A DNA stretch of 64,000 bases from Bacteroidota bacterium (GTDB lineage: Bacteria; Bacteroidota; Bacteroidia; Flavobacteriales_D; Sanyastnellaceae): the NCBI GenBank assembly GCA_027624855.1, contig JAQBTQ010000014.1:1-64000 (forward strand), given 5' to 3'. Of the stretch, positions 11,962-17,353 are shown piece after piece; position 1 is the stretch's first letter; every line of letters starts with the position of its first letter. The translations under genes were made by a program, and so were the position numbers. The notes beneath the pieces were generated by a model that was not told the origin of the DNA, made no database searches, and saw only the letters and a program-made list of their open reading frames with translations.

Positions 11962-14718
11962 CTAGTCTTCAAGCGTTTGCTTGACTTCCACTTCTTCATA
12001 CGCCTCAATCACATCTCCCACTTTGATGTCATTGAATCGATCCACATTCAAGCCGCACTCGAAGCCTTTTGCTACTTCTTTGACATCGTCTTTGAATCGC
12101 TTGAGCGACCCCAATGTTCCGGTATACACTACAACCCCTTCTCGAATCACTCGAACTTTGTTGTTGCGATGAATGTTTCCGTCGATGACAAAGCAACCCG
12201 CAATGGTTCCCACCTTTGAAATCTTGAAGGTTTCTCGGATTTCAGCAGAACCCACAATACTTTCTTCAATTTTCGCAGACAGCAGACCTTCCATCGCGTC
12301 TTTCATCTCCTCGATGGCTTTGTAGATTATAGAATACAGCTTAATCTGCACACCTTCTTTTTCAGCCAATTTTCGAGCTGCACCGCTTGGTCGGACTTGG
12401 AAACCAATGATGATTGCCGATGACGCCGAGGCCAGCAATATGTCGGATTCAGATACTTGGCCCACCGCTTTGTGGATGATGTTCACCTGAACTTTTTCCG
12501 TAGACAACTTCTCCAACGAATCGCTCAATGCTTCAATGGATCCATCCACATCGCCTTTAACAATGAGGTTTAATTCCTTGAATTCTCCAACGGCAATTCG
12601 ACGACCCAATTCTTCAAGCGTCACAGAGCGTTGGGAGCGAACTCCTTGCTCGCGCTGAAGTTGCTGTCGCTTTACTGCAATATTTCTCGCTTCGCGTTCG
12701 TCATCAAAGACATGGAACTTATCGCCAGCATTGGGTGCTCCATCAAATCCAAGAATGGATACTGGAACCGATGGGCCCGCTTCTTCAACCCGGGTGCCGC
12801 GCTCATTAAACATGGCCTTTACCTTGCCGGAAAACTGCCCAGCGAGAACGGCGTCACCAACGCGGAGCGTCCCACCTTCCACCAGCAAGTTCGTAACATA
12901 CCCGCGCCCTTTGTCCAATGAACTTTCCACAACGGTGCCAATGGCGCGCTTTTCGGGATTTGCCTTCAAGTCGAGCATTTCGGCTTCGAGCAGCACCTTT
13001 TCGAGCAACTCGTTGATGTTGGTGCCATTTTTGGCAGAAATCTCCTGGCTCTGGAATTTGCCCCCCCATTCTTCAACCAAGACATTCATTTCCGAAAGTT
13101 CTTGGCGGATTTTGTCAGCGTTCGCTTCTGGTCGATCCATCTTGTTAATGGCAATGACCATTGGAATGCCAGCCGCTTGGGCATGATTGATGGCTTCCTT
13201 TGTCTGGGGCATTACGGCATCATCCGCTGCCACAACGATGACCGCAATATCGGTCACTTGCGCCCCTCGAGCGCGCATCGCTGTAAACGCTTCGTGACCA
13301 GGGGTATCCAAAAAAGTCATCTGCCCTCCCTGAGGAAGGGTCACATGATAGGCTCCGATGTGCTGGGTGATTCCACCAGCCTCACCAGCGATCACATTTG
13401 CATTTCGGATAAAGTCCAACAATGACGTTTTTCCGTGGTCAACGTGACCCATAACCGTCACAATTGGTGGTCGGCCCGTCAAATCCTCTTCGCTGTCTTC
13501 CTCAATATCAATGGCTTCTTGGACTTCTGCACTGACAAAATTGGCCTCATAGCCAAATTCCTCAGCGATGATGGTAATGGTTTCAGAATCCAATCGCTGA
13601 TTGATGGATACCATAATGCCGAGCGTCATACAAGCAGAAATGACCTCATTGACGTTCGCATTCATCATATTGGCCAACTCAGCAACCGTGACGAATTCAG
13701 TTAGTTGGAGCGTCATCGCCTCCTCCTGCTGTCGAGCTAACTCTTGTTCCTGTCGCTCCGCTACTGCACTTCGCTTTGCACGACGAAGTTTGGCTGCATT
13801 GGATTTTTTTCCTCCGGACAATCGAGCAAGCGTTTCCTTGATCTCCTTCTGAATGTCCGCTTGGCTAACTTCTTTTTTGACTTCATTTCTTCGGCCTCGA
13901 CTTCCTCGAGCGTCACCCCGATTGCCCCCCGTATTCCGAGCCGTTTTTTCAACGTCGACCTTGGTGATTCGCTTGCGCTTCCTTTTGTTATCTTCTGTTT
14001 TCGACGCTGGGGTTTTCTTCTTCTCTACCGGCAACACAATCTTACCCACAACCGTTGGGCCAGAAAGCTTTTCGATTTTGGTCTCATGCTTTTCGACCAC
14101 CTTCGGAGCATCCTCAGCTTTTGGCTTTTCTTTGGCTTTTGCCTCGGCAGCTGCAGCTGCAGCCTTGGCTTCCGCTTCCTTCTTTGTAATCTCCGCCGAT
14201 TTTTTTGCAATCAACTCCTTTTCCGCAGCTTTCTCCTCTTTCGTCTTTGCTTTCCTCTTTTTCTCAACTGAATCCAGATCAACCTTACCTAAAACCTTGA
14301 CCGAACTTTCCTTTGCCTCCTTTGCCTCGGACTTAGCCGGTTCCTCAAGCTCCACGGCTGGGGTCTCTGGCTCTATCCGATCGACTTTCGGTTGCTGTTG
14401 GCTCTTTTGAAATACGGATAAATCAATTTCAACTTCGGCCTCCTCTTTTTGCGAGCTGCTCTTTCTTGCCGATGCCAATGTGACACTTTCACGATCAATG
14501 GCAGATCGACTAGCAGAACTTACGGCCTTTTCCTTCGCCGCTTTTTCGTCTTGGAAATTCGCGCGAATCAACGCATACGCATCCGCCTCAATTTTTGTGT
14601 TGGGTTTGGCTTCTGCTTCAATGCCTTTGCTGGCCAAAAAGTCAACAATGGTTTGTATTCCCAAGTTGAATTCTCGGGCAATTTTGTTCAGTCGTACGGG
14701 TTTGCTAGCGTCAGCCAT
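11962..14718 (-). CDS. infB: Translation initiation factor IF-2
   Basis: GTPase that brings initiator tRNA to the small ribosomal subunit. The 918-residue product has an IF2_N helical domain at the N-terminus ([17 protein letters not shown]), a long Lys/Glu/Ala-rich low-complexity linker (about 60-330), a second IF2_N-like segment (about 340-400), then the GTPase domain with G1 GHVDHGKT (424-431), G3 DTPGH and G4 NKMD, and the C-terminal domains II-IV. The ATG at 14716-14718 is preferred over a TTG two codons earlier. Last gene of rimP-nusA-infB, 58 bp after nusA. Confidence 0.97.
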
Positions 14719-14776
14719 TGGCAATTTTGGGCGTTGTAGTTGCGAATTTAAAGGGAATGCGGGGATTTGACAGGAT

Positions 14777-16012
14777 TTAGTTCAATTCGTCCTTTAGGAT
14801 TTTCATGACTTCGCGGATGGTCTCCACCTCCAAATCTGTTCGATTCACCAAGAAATCTTCATCTCGATTGAGCACAGAACGTGCAGTTTCCAAACCGATT
14901 TTGATGAATTCATCCAAAATCCAAGAATCGATTTCATCAGAGAACTCAGTCAATTCCACATCATCAACTGCATCTTCCTCATCGCGATAAACGTCAATTT
15001 CGTAATTGGTCAGCAACCCTGCCAATTTGATGTTGTTTCCACCTTTTCCGATTGCCAAACTCACTTGGTCTGACTTTAGATAAACCTTTGCTTCTCTTGT
15101 CTCCTCGTTCAATTCAATCGAGGTGATTTTGGCTGGGCTTAACGCTCGAGTCACCAACAATTGCTCATTCTCAGTGAAGTTGATCACATCAATGTTCTCG
15201 TTTTTCAATTCACGAACAATGCTGTGAATTCGCGAACCCTTCATTCCGACACATGCGCCCACTGGATCGACTCGCTCATCGTAAGATTCTACGGCCACTT
15301 TGGCGCGTTCACCTGGAGCACGGACCACTCGTTTGATGGTGATGAGGCCATCAAAAATTTCAGGAACTTCTTGTTCAAACAGTCGCTCCAAGAATTCCGG
15401 TGCCGTTCGAGAAAGGACAATTCGAGGATTGTTGTTTTTCATTTCCACAGCAGAAACAACCGCGCGAATGGTGTCTCCTTTTTTGAAGAAATCCCCTGGG
15501 ATTTGATTTTCTCGTGGCATGACAACCTCATTGTCTTCATCGTCAACCAATAAGATTTCTCGTTTCCAAATTTGGTAGACTTCCGCAGACACAACTTCTC
15601 CTACGCGCTCCTTGTATTTTTGATAGATCGCATCTTTCTCCAAATCCATAATGCGTCCGGCGAGATTCTGTCGCAACGACAATACGTTCCGTCGGCCAAA
15701 AGACTCCAATTTGATCTCTTCTGAAACCTCTTCCCCTTCTTCAAAATCATCCTCGATTTTTAAAGCTTCCGACAACGCAATTTCTTGATTCTCATCTTCT
15801 AAATCTTCATCGGCAACGATGGTTCGGTTGCGCCAGATTTCTAAATCCCCTTTGTCGGGGTTGATGATGATATCAAAATTCGAGTCATCCCCGTATTTCT
15901 TTAGAATCATGGCTCGGAAGACATCTTCCAAAATGCCCATCATCACCTCGCGGTCGATGTTTTTAAACTCTTTGAATTCCTTAAAAGAATCCACCAAATT
16001 CAGCTGTGTCAT
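14777..16012 (-). CDS. nusA: Transcription termination/antitermination factor NusA
   Basis: RNA-polymerase-binding factor controlling pausing, termination and antitermination. The 411-residue protein contains the N-terminal polymerase-binding domain (1-125), an S1 domain (about 130-200, with [14 protein letters not shown]) and tandem KH domains ([12 protein letters not shown] and [13 protein letters not shown] GxxG-type loops). It ends shortly after the KH region with an acidic segment and lacks the long C-terminal repeats of E. coli NusA, as is usual in this phylum. It lies 40 bp after rimP in the same operon. Confidence 0.96.
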
Positions 16013-16052: not shown

Positions 16053-16526
16053 TTAATCCCTCTTGAATGAAACCTGCACTTTCGTCCAGTCCAATCCATT
16101 CAATGGAAACGTCTGCTCTTCTTCTATCCAGGCTTTTGCTTTGCGGCCCTCGATTCTGCGCTTTTCGCGAACGACGAGGGTGATTTCCTCTTCACTCGCC
16201 TTTATCATTTTTCCTTCTACCTTACCTGCGTCAGTAACCTTCACCTGCACCAACCTGCCAATGTTTTTTAAGTATTGTCTGTGCAATCGCAAGGGTTGAT
16301 CCAACCCTGGAGAACTTACGTCCAAGGAAAAATCTTCTACATCTCGATCGAGAGACGATTCAAGGTGACGACTGAGCGCCATGCATTTTTCAATGCTCGT
16401 TCCTTCATCATCATCTAGCAAAATGGAAATGGAATTTCCCTCGCTGACACGGACATCAACCAAAAACCCACTACCCTCCGCGAGGAAGCTTTCAGCAATG
16501 GTTTTGATTTGATTGGCGTCGATCAT
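16053..16526 (-). CDS. rimP: Ribosome maturation factor RimP
   Basis: Needed for maturation of the 30S subunit. From the ATG at 16524-16526 the product is 157 residues (MIDANQIKTIAESFLAEG...). Family signatures include the LDDDEGTSIEKCMALSRHLE segment and DFSLDVSSPGLDQPL. A longer in-frame reading to 16610 would translate through a terminator hairpin and nearly into the promoter, so it is rejected. First gene of the rimP-nusA-infB operon, the conserved bacterial order. Confidence 0.95.
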   Translation of the reverse strand: MIDANQIKTIAESFLAEGSGFLVDVRVSEGNSISILLDDDEGTSIEKCMALSRHLESSLDRDVEDFSLDVSSPGLDQPLRLHRQYLKNIGRLVQVKVTDAGKVEGKMIKASEEEITLVVREKRRIEGRKAKAWIEEEQTFPLNGLDWTKVQVSFKRD

Positions 16527-16540
16527 GGTAAAAATTCGAA

Positions 16541-16569
16541 GAAAAAAAAGAGGGGTAGACTCCCCTCTT
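16541..16569 (-). terminator. Intrinsic-terminator hairpin in the rimP leader (candidate attenuator)
   Basis: Read on the minus strand: an 8-bp stem (AAGAGGGG / CCCCTCTT, + coordinates 16548-16555 and 16562-16569) with a 6-base loop, followed by a run of eight T and a C. The run ends 14 bases before the rimP ATG and the hairpin lies downstream of the promoter at 16597-16626, so it sits inside the 5' leader. There is no upstream minus-strand gene it could terminate. Confidence 0.8.
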
Positions 16570-16596
16570 GGTTTTTCGTTCGCGTTTATTTCGCTG

Positions 16597-16626
16597 CAAA
16601 TATACATCAACCTTCTTGAACTTCAA
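16597..16626 (-). promoter_or_regulatory. Promoter of rimP-nusA-infB
   Basis: Minus strand: -33 TTG at 16624-16626, 19-base spacer, -7 TATATTTG at 16597-16604, matching Bacteroidota primary sigma consensus. The predicted start near 16592 gives a leader of about 65 bases that includes the terminator-like hairpin. Confidence 0.75.
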
Positions 16627-16663: not shown

Positions 16664-17353
16664 ATGTCGTACGTGCAGAAAATGATTGCGGAAGGGGAAC
16701 ACCAAACCCAAGATTTCAAGATGCGTGTTGATGATGCGCAAAAAATTGCTCGTACCATTGTTGCTTTTGCTAATACCGATGGCGGACGACTACTCATTGG
16801 TGTCAAAGACAATGGCGCAATCACAGGCGTCAACCAAGAGGAAGAGTACCACATGATTGACCTCGCCTGTCAATCGCATTGTAAACCTGCCGTTCCTTTT
16901 GAGATTCAGGTTTGGAAAGCCGAAGGCAGAAGCATCCTCGAAGTCCGCATCCCACGTTCTGCACAGCGTCCTCATTTTTGCGAAGATGAGCAAGGCCAAT
17001 GGCGGGCCTACCTAAGAAGAGAAGACCGCATCCATCGAGCAAGTCCAGTACAAGTCAAAGTGTGGCAATACGAAATGCGAACAGACCGATCCGAATTTCG
17101 CTACGATCAATACATCGGAAAATTATTCGCCTCCTGGCGCCTTGGAAAAGAGCTCAATTTCAGGCAAGTCGCACGCAAAGCCAGACTTTCTTTTAGCGAT
17201 GCGGAAGACCTCCTGTGCCTTCTCATCGTTTGGGGCATCATTCGCTGGGAGCGGGGTCAAAGGGGATTACTCTACTGCCTCAATGATGAAAACGCGTTGG
17301 ATCAGCTCGAAACAGAAGGTGCCGAAAAGTTCAGATGGAAAAATTATTCTTGA
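16664..17353 (+). CDS. AlbA_2/Schlafen-type domain protein
   Basis: Predicted nucleic-acid-binding or regulatory protein; exact role unknown. The 229-residue product opens with an AlbA_2 domain (PF04326-like), seen as EGEHQTQDFKMRVDD, IVAFANTDGGRLLIGVKDNG and a strand-rich stretch to about residue 130. The C-terminal third looks like a winged-helix segment (FRQVARKARLSFSDAEDLL, then a short strand). The ATG at 16664 is preferred over a TTG two codons earlier. A TAACTTCG box (16650-16657) lies 6 bases upstream. It is divergent from rimP and 46 bp before porZ. Many AlbA_2 proteins carry an ATPase-like C-terminus; none is visible here. Confidence 0.75.
   Translation: MSYVQKMIAEGEHQTQDFKMRVDDAQKIARTIVAFANTDGGRLLIGVKDNGAITGVNQEEEYHMIDLACQSHCKPAVPFEIQVWKAEGRSILEVRIPRSAQRPHFCEDEQGQWRAYLRREDRIHRASPVQVKVWQYEMRTDRSEFRYDQYIGKLFASWRLGKELNFRQVARKARLSFSDAEDLLCLLIVWGIIRWERGQRGLLYCLNDENALDQLETEGAEKFRWKNYS

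Follow-up and report, generated by a model that had tools for sequence, protein, structure and literature searches.

A conserved leader hairpin with terminator anatomy ahead of the rimP-nusA-infB operon in Bacteroidota, and its possible control by NusA

What might a hairpin with the anatomy of an intrinsic terminator do between the promoter of an operon and its first gene, and which gene of the operon would it serve? Both questions are raised by the rimP-nusA-infB leader in a Bacteroidota genome of the family Sanyastnellaceae, of which one stretch of 64,000 nucleotides (contig JAQBTQ010000014.1; hereafter the window) was analysed.

The rimP leader in the window

On the minus strand, between 16626 and 16524, the order read directly from the sequence is promoter, 27 nt, hairpin with U run, 15 nt and the ATG of rimP. 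The features are as follows.

16597-16626, minus strand: promoter of the Bacteroidota type, TTG-N19-TATATTTG, with TTG at 16626-16624 and TATATTTG at 16604-16597 (read directly)
16570-16596, minus strand: A-rich stretch of 27 nt from promoter element to hairpin (read directly)
16548-16569, minus strand: terminator hairpin of 8 bp with a 6-nt loop (sequence, fold and terminator scan)
16569-16562, minus strand: 5' arm of the hairpin, AAGAGGGG (read directly)
16561-16556, minus strand: loop of the hairpin, AGUCUA (read directly)
16555-16548, minus strand: 3' arm of the hairpin, CCCCUCUU (read directly)
16542-16549, minus strand: run of eight U, the first two overlapping the 8-bp stem (read directly)
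16053-16526, minus strand: rimP, 157 aa, first gene of the operon, ATG at 16526-16524 (RimP_N, E=4e-9; RimP C-terminal SH3 domain, E=1.2e-6)
14777-16012, minus strand: nusA, 411 aa, the presumed acting protein (NusA_N, E=4.3e-30; KH_5, E=1.1e-27)
11962-14724, minus strand: infB, translation initiation factor IF-2 (IF-2, IF2_N and GTP_EFTU domains, Pfam)
16664-17353, plus strand: divergent neighbour, 229 aa, SLFN_AlbA_2 domain (Pfam domain search)

Two of the eight U residues pair in the stem, and the structure can be described either as 8 bp followed by six U or as 6 bp followed by eight U. The leader folds with -20.8 kcal/mol (z = -3.4), and none of 200 shuffles folded equally well. From the promoter spacing, transcription would start at about 16590-16592, inside the A-rich stretch. 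The initial annotation of this locus was right about the TTG-N19 promoter, the 8-bp stem and the eight U residues, and for the distance of about 25-45 bases that it gave between promoter and hairpin, 27 nt are counted from the end of TATATTTG; its gap of 14 nt between U run and ATG has to be corrected to 15 nt. It had further held that no upstream gene on the same strand could use the hairpin as its terminator and that no competing stem is obvious. Both statements hold, since the upstream neighbour is divergent, so that the hairpin cannot be the 3' terminator of an upstream gene, and folding of the leader shows no competing stem (among 151 leaders, with the start assumed, the pairing probability of the stem exceeded 0.8 in 98.7%). 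Neither a sensing element nor a second structure was visible, by sequence or folding, in the leader of about 50 nt ahead of the U run. The start of the divergent SLFN_AlbA_2 gene is alike in sequence in L002-L009.

A terminator scan of 12 kb listed the site but gave no excess over shuffles (13 found, 12.9 expected), and neither did the sigma-70-type promoters of the same scan (6 found, 13.0 expected), of which the consensus is not of the Bacteroidota type. The leader hairpin is thus significant by its conservation and not by the scan. The pattern GAGGGGN3-9CCCCTC has a single location in the genome as a whole, and so has its reversed control, indicating that rarity of the pattern alone proves little; a repeat or regulon built on it was rejected on the same count. 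Relaxing the pattern to AGGGGN3-9CCCCT gave similar numbers for pattern and control in the genus (9 against 7 in G000) and an excess over the control in some other genera (19 against 3 in G026, for example), where many of the listed matches look like tRNA arms; as a signature of the element this looser pattern is useless. Of 20 TAnnTTTG sites in the window, three precede a hairpin and T run, the rimP-leader site being the clean one and the other two having long irregular stems.

Occurrence of the hairpin with and without rimP

The initial annotation made its reading depend on conservation of the hairpin in relatives. The unit of hairpin and U run was found to be kept in the genus, family and phylum samples, mostly behind a TAnnTTTG promoter. 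Within the genus, RimP was found in 21 of 22 genomes, and each of the 21 leaders reads GAGGGG, short loop, CCCCTC, then a T run, with variable loops and flanks; 20 of them have TATATTTG or TATCTTTG no more than 60 nt ahead of the hairpin, and L009 has TATCTTCG. Outside the genus, 83 genomes of the family gave a RimP match, and a terminator was present in all of the 69 loci examined (sets of 29 and 40 loci, with L041 left out of the former as a duplicate of a genus member). In the phylum sample, RimP was found in 147 of 148 genomes, of which two were already in other sets, leaving 145 to be scanned. Terminators were detected in 145/145 at E<=-7 (dinucleotide shuffles, 114/435), in 140/145 at E<=-9 (59/435) and, within 190 nt at E<=-9, in 136/145 (31/435).

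A further set of named genomes consisted of the best 80 NusA loci of a longer list, in 78 of which a RimP frame was identified (the contig end cuts it in L081, and L095 has none). Some terminator was found in 73 of these 78 leaders. Among the five misses, L103 is truncated, and L084, L088, L130 and L101 keep the hairpin with a poor U run. In L092 and L108, both counted among the 73, the terminator that was scored is a different hairpin farther upstream; as the scan accepts any terminator within 330 nt, single hairpins counted elsewhere may also be the wrong one. The sample sets overlap (for instance, L053 and L054 with G009:C38 and G006:C161), and their counts are not to be added.

The frequency at rimP was also compared with that at other genes, using an identical search span (from -200 to +30 around the called ORF start, with E<=-9 and 5 or more T in 8). 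Positive rimP starts numbered 17/23 with a divergent neighbour, 30/36 with a same-strand neighbour and 2/2 at the locus edge, against 20/123 divergent and 22/319 same-strand starts of other genes; 18 of the 80 loci, in which no rimP ORF was called, are left out of this comparison. When the span was made wider for rimP than for the controls, the rimP values were 22/23 and 34/36, respectively. Judged from these sequence comparisons, a leader hairpin with terminator anatomy is real, very widely conserved and not due to chance.

Genomes without rimP bear on the question of which gene the element serves. Of 392 genomes in a larger sample of the phylum, 18 lacked RimP by PF02576. NusA_N was missing as well from six of the 18, which were excluded as probable assembly gaps; the remaining 12 have nusA. 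Together with the genome reached through L095 (G260), in which the gene before nusA is divergent, these made 13 rimP-less genomes. L129 and L131 had been candidates for the same group and were dropped, because the profile search found shortened RimP frames directly before nusA (L129:4692-4970, E 1.7e-24; L131:4636-4965, E 1.3e-27). With all filters off, the RimP profile detected nothing convincing near the 13 nusA genes (best E 0.072); a strongly diverged RimP may exist elsewhere in these genomes.

A hairpin with T run is located upstream of nusA in 13/13 rimP-less genomes (E -6.6 to -17.5), compared with 47/780 shuffles at E<=-6.5. A TAnnTTTG precedes it in 10 of the 13 by script and in L329 and L330 by eye, and none was found in L332; in L329, the hairpin at -189 was taken as the equivalent one over a slightly lower-energy hairpin chosen by script. 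On a NusA tree of 41 rows including 9 of the 13, the presence and absence of rimP required three label changes, of which well-supported branches force at least two. This would correspond to at least two, and most simply three, losses of rimP. The retention of the element where rimP is undetectable indicates that it goes with nusA-infB and that rimP is not needed. In all 13 genomes infB lies downstream of nusA; linkage to nusA rather than to rimP is therefore observed, though inseparably from infB, which could itself be the regulated gene. The self-attenuation by NusA suggested in the initial annotation is supported in part, and indirectly, by the persistence of the element upstream of nusA.

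The genomes having nusA-infB without detectable RimP are G221, G273, G309, G400, G426, G458, G467 and G482 (family f30), G384, G419, G493 and G497 (family f47), and G260 (L095). This suggests loss or extreme divergence of a ribosome-maturation factor in these lineages.

Stem shape, stem sequence and promoter spacing

The initial annotation had proposed that compensatory changes be sought in the stem. Covariation was analysed on an alignment of 14 leaders of family f6 plus one leader of the window's order (13 distinct sequences), which replaced a MAFFT alignment of 33 hairpins with misregistered arms. Four of the eight pairs are altered on both sides in two of the 13 distinct sequences, and four other members of the genus of these two retain the commoner pairs. 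The covariation score was 0.269 against 0.081 in shuffles, none of 500 shuffles being as high. The two changed sequences probably represent one evolutionary event. Two controls were weak: further pair types did not exceed the shuffles in this alignment (192/500 reached them), and sliding the partner by -2 columns still left 3 doubly changed pairs with a score of 0.133. Compensatory change is seen, though not all of its controls are clean. Since the hairpins of the wider survey were chosen for folding, their pairing is no independent test, whereas their presence against controls is.

The 5' arm is G-rich in 178/184 Bacteroidia leaders. Other stems of the phylum are written in different words, such as GAAGTGGGG, AGTGAGCG and GATAGCCCG, and also TCGCCC...GGGCGA with inverted polarity; by a crude pattern count, 28 of the 145 phylum-sample hairpins carry the inverted label. 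The wholesale difference of the stem between clades indicates that shape and position are kept rather than sequence.

This result can be set against the rimP-leader of Naville and Gautheret (2010), who placed rimP at the head of the genes for which premature terminators were predicted, gave the element its name and proposed NusA as the likely regulator on account of a conserved GGGc...gCCC stem (PMC2965389). As described in that paper, the rimP-leader shares with the leader in the window a terminator with U run in the 5' UTR of rimP-nusA-infB (here by sequence), a G-rich 5' arm and C-rich 3' arm (here AAGAGGGG / CCCCUCUU), and, in the general form given there, the lack of a visible antiterminator; the distance to the gene start is 4-130 nt there and 15 nt in the window. 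In contrast, the window's stem, GAGGGG...CCCCUC with the core GGGGAGUCUACCCC, is without the published GGGc...gCCC core (c and g in lower case in the source). We therefore claim the same position and kind as the rimP-leader, not a motif match. A crude count of GGGC..GCCC gave 0/21 leaders in the genus, 15/69 in the rest of the family, 13/145 in the phylum sample and 10/78 among the named leaders. With phylum-sample stems varying by clade and some of them inverted, the published motif is not the constraint there, unlike in the account of PMC2965389, and the published argument for a protein reading a sequence motif is weakened. The main text of PMC2965389 does not name the phylum Bacteroidota, though its supplementary lists may include cases.

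The spacing of the hairpin is more regular on the promoter side. A TAnnTTTG is located within 90 nt upstream of the hairpin in 174/198 Bacteroidia leaders, against 6/311 far-upstream control intervals (all sets, other classes included); among 202 distinct Bacteroidia leaders, counted without selection for T, TAnnTTTG was absent from 13, and in 5 no hairpin lay in reach of one. The distance from promoter element to hairpin has a median of 25 nt with quartiles of 21-28 nt (158 distinct leaders), falling to 5-12 nt in nine leaders, whereas that from hairpin to RimP domain is wide, with quartiles of 24.5-86.75 nt. The 22 nt upstream of the hairpin contain on average 39.5% A (151 distinct leaders), and the stem pairing probability has a median of 0.98 and a lowest value of 0.18 (151 leaders, with the start assumed 5 nt past the promoter element). 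Narrow spacing on the one side and wide spacing on the other fit a signal tied to the polymerase and not to a ribosome site, and a hairpin tied to the promoter rather than to the protein start fits termination better than translational control. Little room would be left before the hairpin for an antiterminator, a riboswitch or a leader peptide.

Attenuation by NusA and alternative readings

Control of this operon through a leader terminator is of a known kind. For the gbs0413-gbs0418 leader of S. agalactiae, RNA-seq is reported to show that transcription terminates 31 nt past the start site and that a single start gives rise to both short and long transcripts; NusA feedback was proposed (PMC4448216). 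The leader belongs to the same operon, with RNA-seq as the evidence there and sequence as the evidence in the window. According to a review citing Mondal 2016, NusA of B. subtilis is autoregulated by NusA-stimulated intrinsic termination in the 5' leader (PMC12288461). The rimP leader of that organism is 180 nt long (PMC2965389), compared with about 65-70 nt in the window, where the terminator would lie near +45 to +50 from the presumed start. In E. coli, rimP is preceded by two terminators, and the operon is said to be regulated by its own product NusA (PMC6511841). The idea of NusA governing a terminator in its own leader is thus already published for the rimP leader (PMC2965389, PMC4448216). 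What the present comparison would add is that the element persists at nusA where rimP is undetectable, and that shape and position are conserved in place of sequence. As far as their texts describe, these papers left open which of rimP, nusA and infB the element serves and whether its sequence is read by a protein; the comparison narrows both questions.

Rfam RF01770 (rimP) is named for the leader of the same gene and has a model of 102 positions. Its covariance model gave no match in the source genome and, among 14 control genomes, matched E. coli only. At the gathering score, no Rfam family was found in the window and none at this leader in 13 related loci, where the matches were a cobalamin riboswitch and tRNA only; at E<=10, weak matches far below the gathering scores were all that appeared in the search. 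The cobalamin riboswitch is located at L101:1823-2026 on a Prevotellaceae contig (103.2 bits). A phylum with its own promoter type gains a simple leader, about 50 nt up to the stop, matched by no Rfam family here, and what is probably a known kind of control is met throughout nearly all of the genomes sampled from this large phylum.

On the evidence of anatomy, conservation and linkage, the promoter-proximal terminator probably acts as an attenuator of the rimP-nusA-infB operon under NusA feedback. RNA polymerase would start about 20 nt before the hairpin and meet the U run around +45 to +50; a fraction would stop there, releasing a transcript about 50 nt long. Polymerase-bound NusA would promote both folding of the hairpin and pausing at the U run; high NusA would then lead to more termination and lower its own operon, and low NusA would let more polymerases read through. 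The terminator in the window looks fairly strong, with its perfect 8-bp stem and six to eight U, and strong terminators may be the ones least in need of NusA; its appearance does not by itself suggest NusA dependence. In B. subtilis, NusG reportedly assists hairpins whose basal pairs are weak, A-U or G-U (PMC8060035), and the two basal A-U pairs of the window's stem mean that NusG could be the factor.

A fixed and unregulated attenuator, with the terminator holding a strong promoter to a low and unvarying read-through, is unlikely. The anatomy would be the same, and a leader of about 50 nt showing no sensing element or second structure fits this idea. A weaker promoter would do as much, however, leaving both the near-universal retention in the phylum sample and the retention at nusA without rimP unexplained, and NusA control of the operon is reported for B. 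subtilis and E. coli (PMC12288461, PMC6511841).

The U run bears on another alternative, in which a 5'-terminal hairpin shields the mRNA from decay and the U run is incidental. In a count made without selection for T, 146/184 Bacteroidia leaders have 5 or more T among 8 after the hairpin, against 7.1% of 7798 control intervals. Good hairpins with a degraded U run were found in L084, L088, L108, L130, L101 and L092 (Tidjanibacter, uncultured Bacteroidales and Prevotellaceae), and a U run of middling quality was seen in several leaders of Alistipes. The low counts arise in part where the U run was taken into the stem; the six degraded leaders, however, are real. These six Bacteroidales leaders indicate that what is conserved may not in all cases be intrinsic termination, and they speak for a shield, as does the closeness of the hairpin to the presumed start (median 25 nt past the promoter element, 5-12 nt in the nine leaders above). 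Given the frequency of the U run elsewhere and the termination seen by RNA-seq in the rimP leader of S. agalactiae (PMC4448216), we regard the shield as quite unlikely.

Relief of the terminator by cold-shock RNA chaperones of the CspA family instead of NusA, with a cold-induced operon, appears very unlikely, because the element is also present in Bacteroidales that their record titles place in the animal gut, where cold would hardly be a common cause. In its favour, transcripts of the E. coli infB operon are reported to rise on cold shock, the terminators t1 and t2 lie upstream of rimP in that organism, and the reference list of the same paper cites CspA-family antitermination (PMC6511841). 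That the hairpin arose by chance, or simply ends a neighbouring gene as its 3' terminator, has next to no probability; the lack of excess in the generic scan might speak for it, but it is refuted by conservation in genus, family and phylum far above shuffles and by the divergent orientation of the upstream neighbour.

We tentatively propose, as a possibility that we still doubt, that the nusA operon of the Bacteroidota carries a terminator read by its shape at a near-fixed distance from the promoter, staying with nusA on loss of rimP and decayed in some Bacteroidales to a hairpin lacking a proper U run. If so, intrinsic termination would in those Bacteroidales have given way to a hairpin pause dependent on NusA, or to a stop assisted by another factor.

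Tandem hairpins about 50 nt apart and of opposite G/C polarity were observed in the rimP leaders L170, L178, L188, L189, L193, L205 and L209. Their order, GGG...CCC followed by CCC...GGG, is the reverse of that reported for Gammaproteobacteria in PMC2965389.
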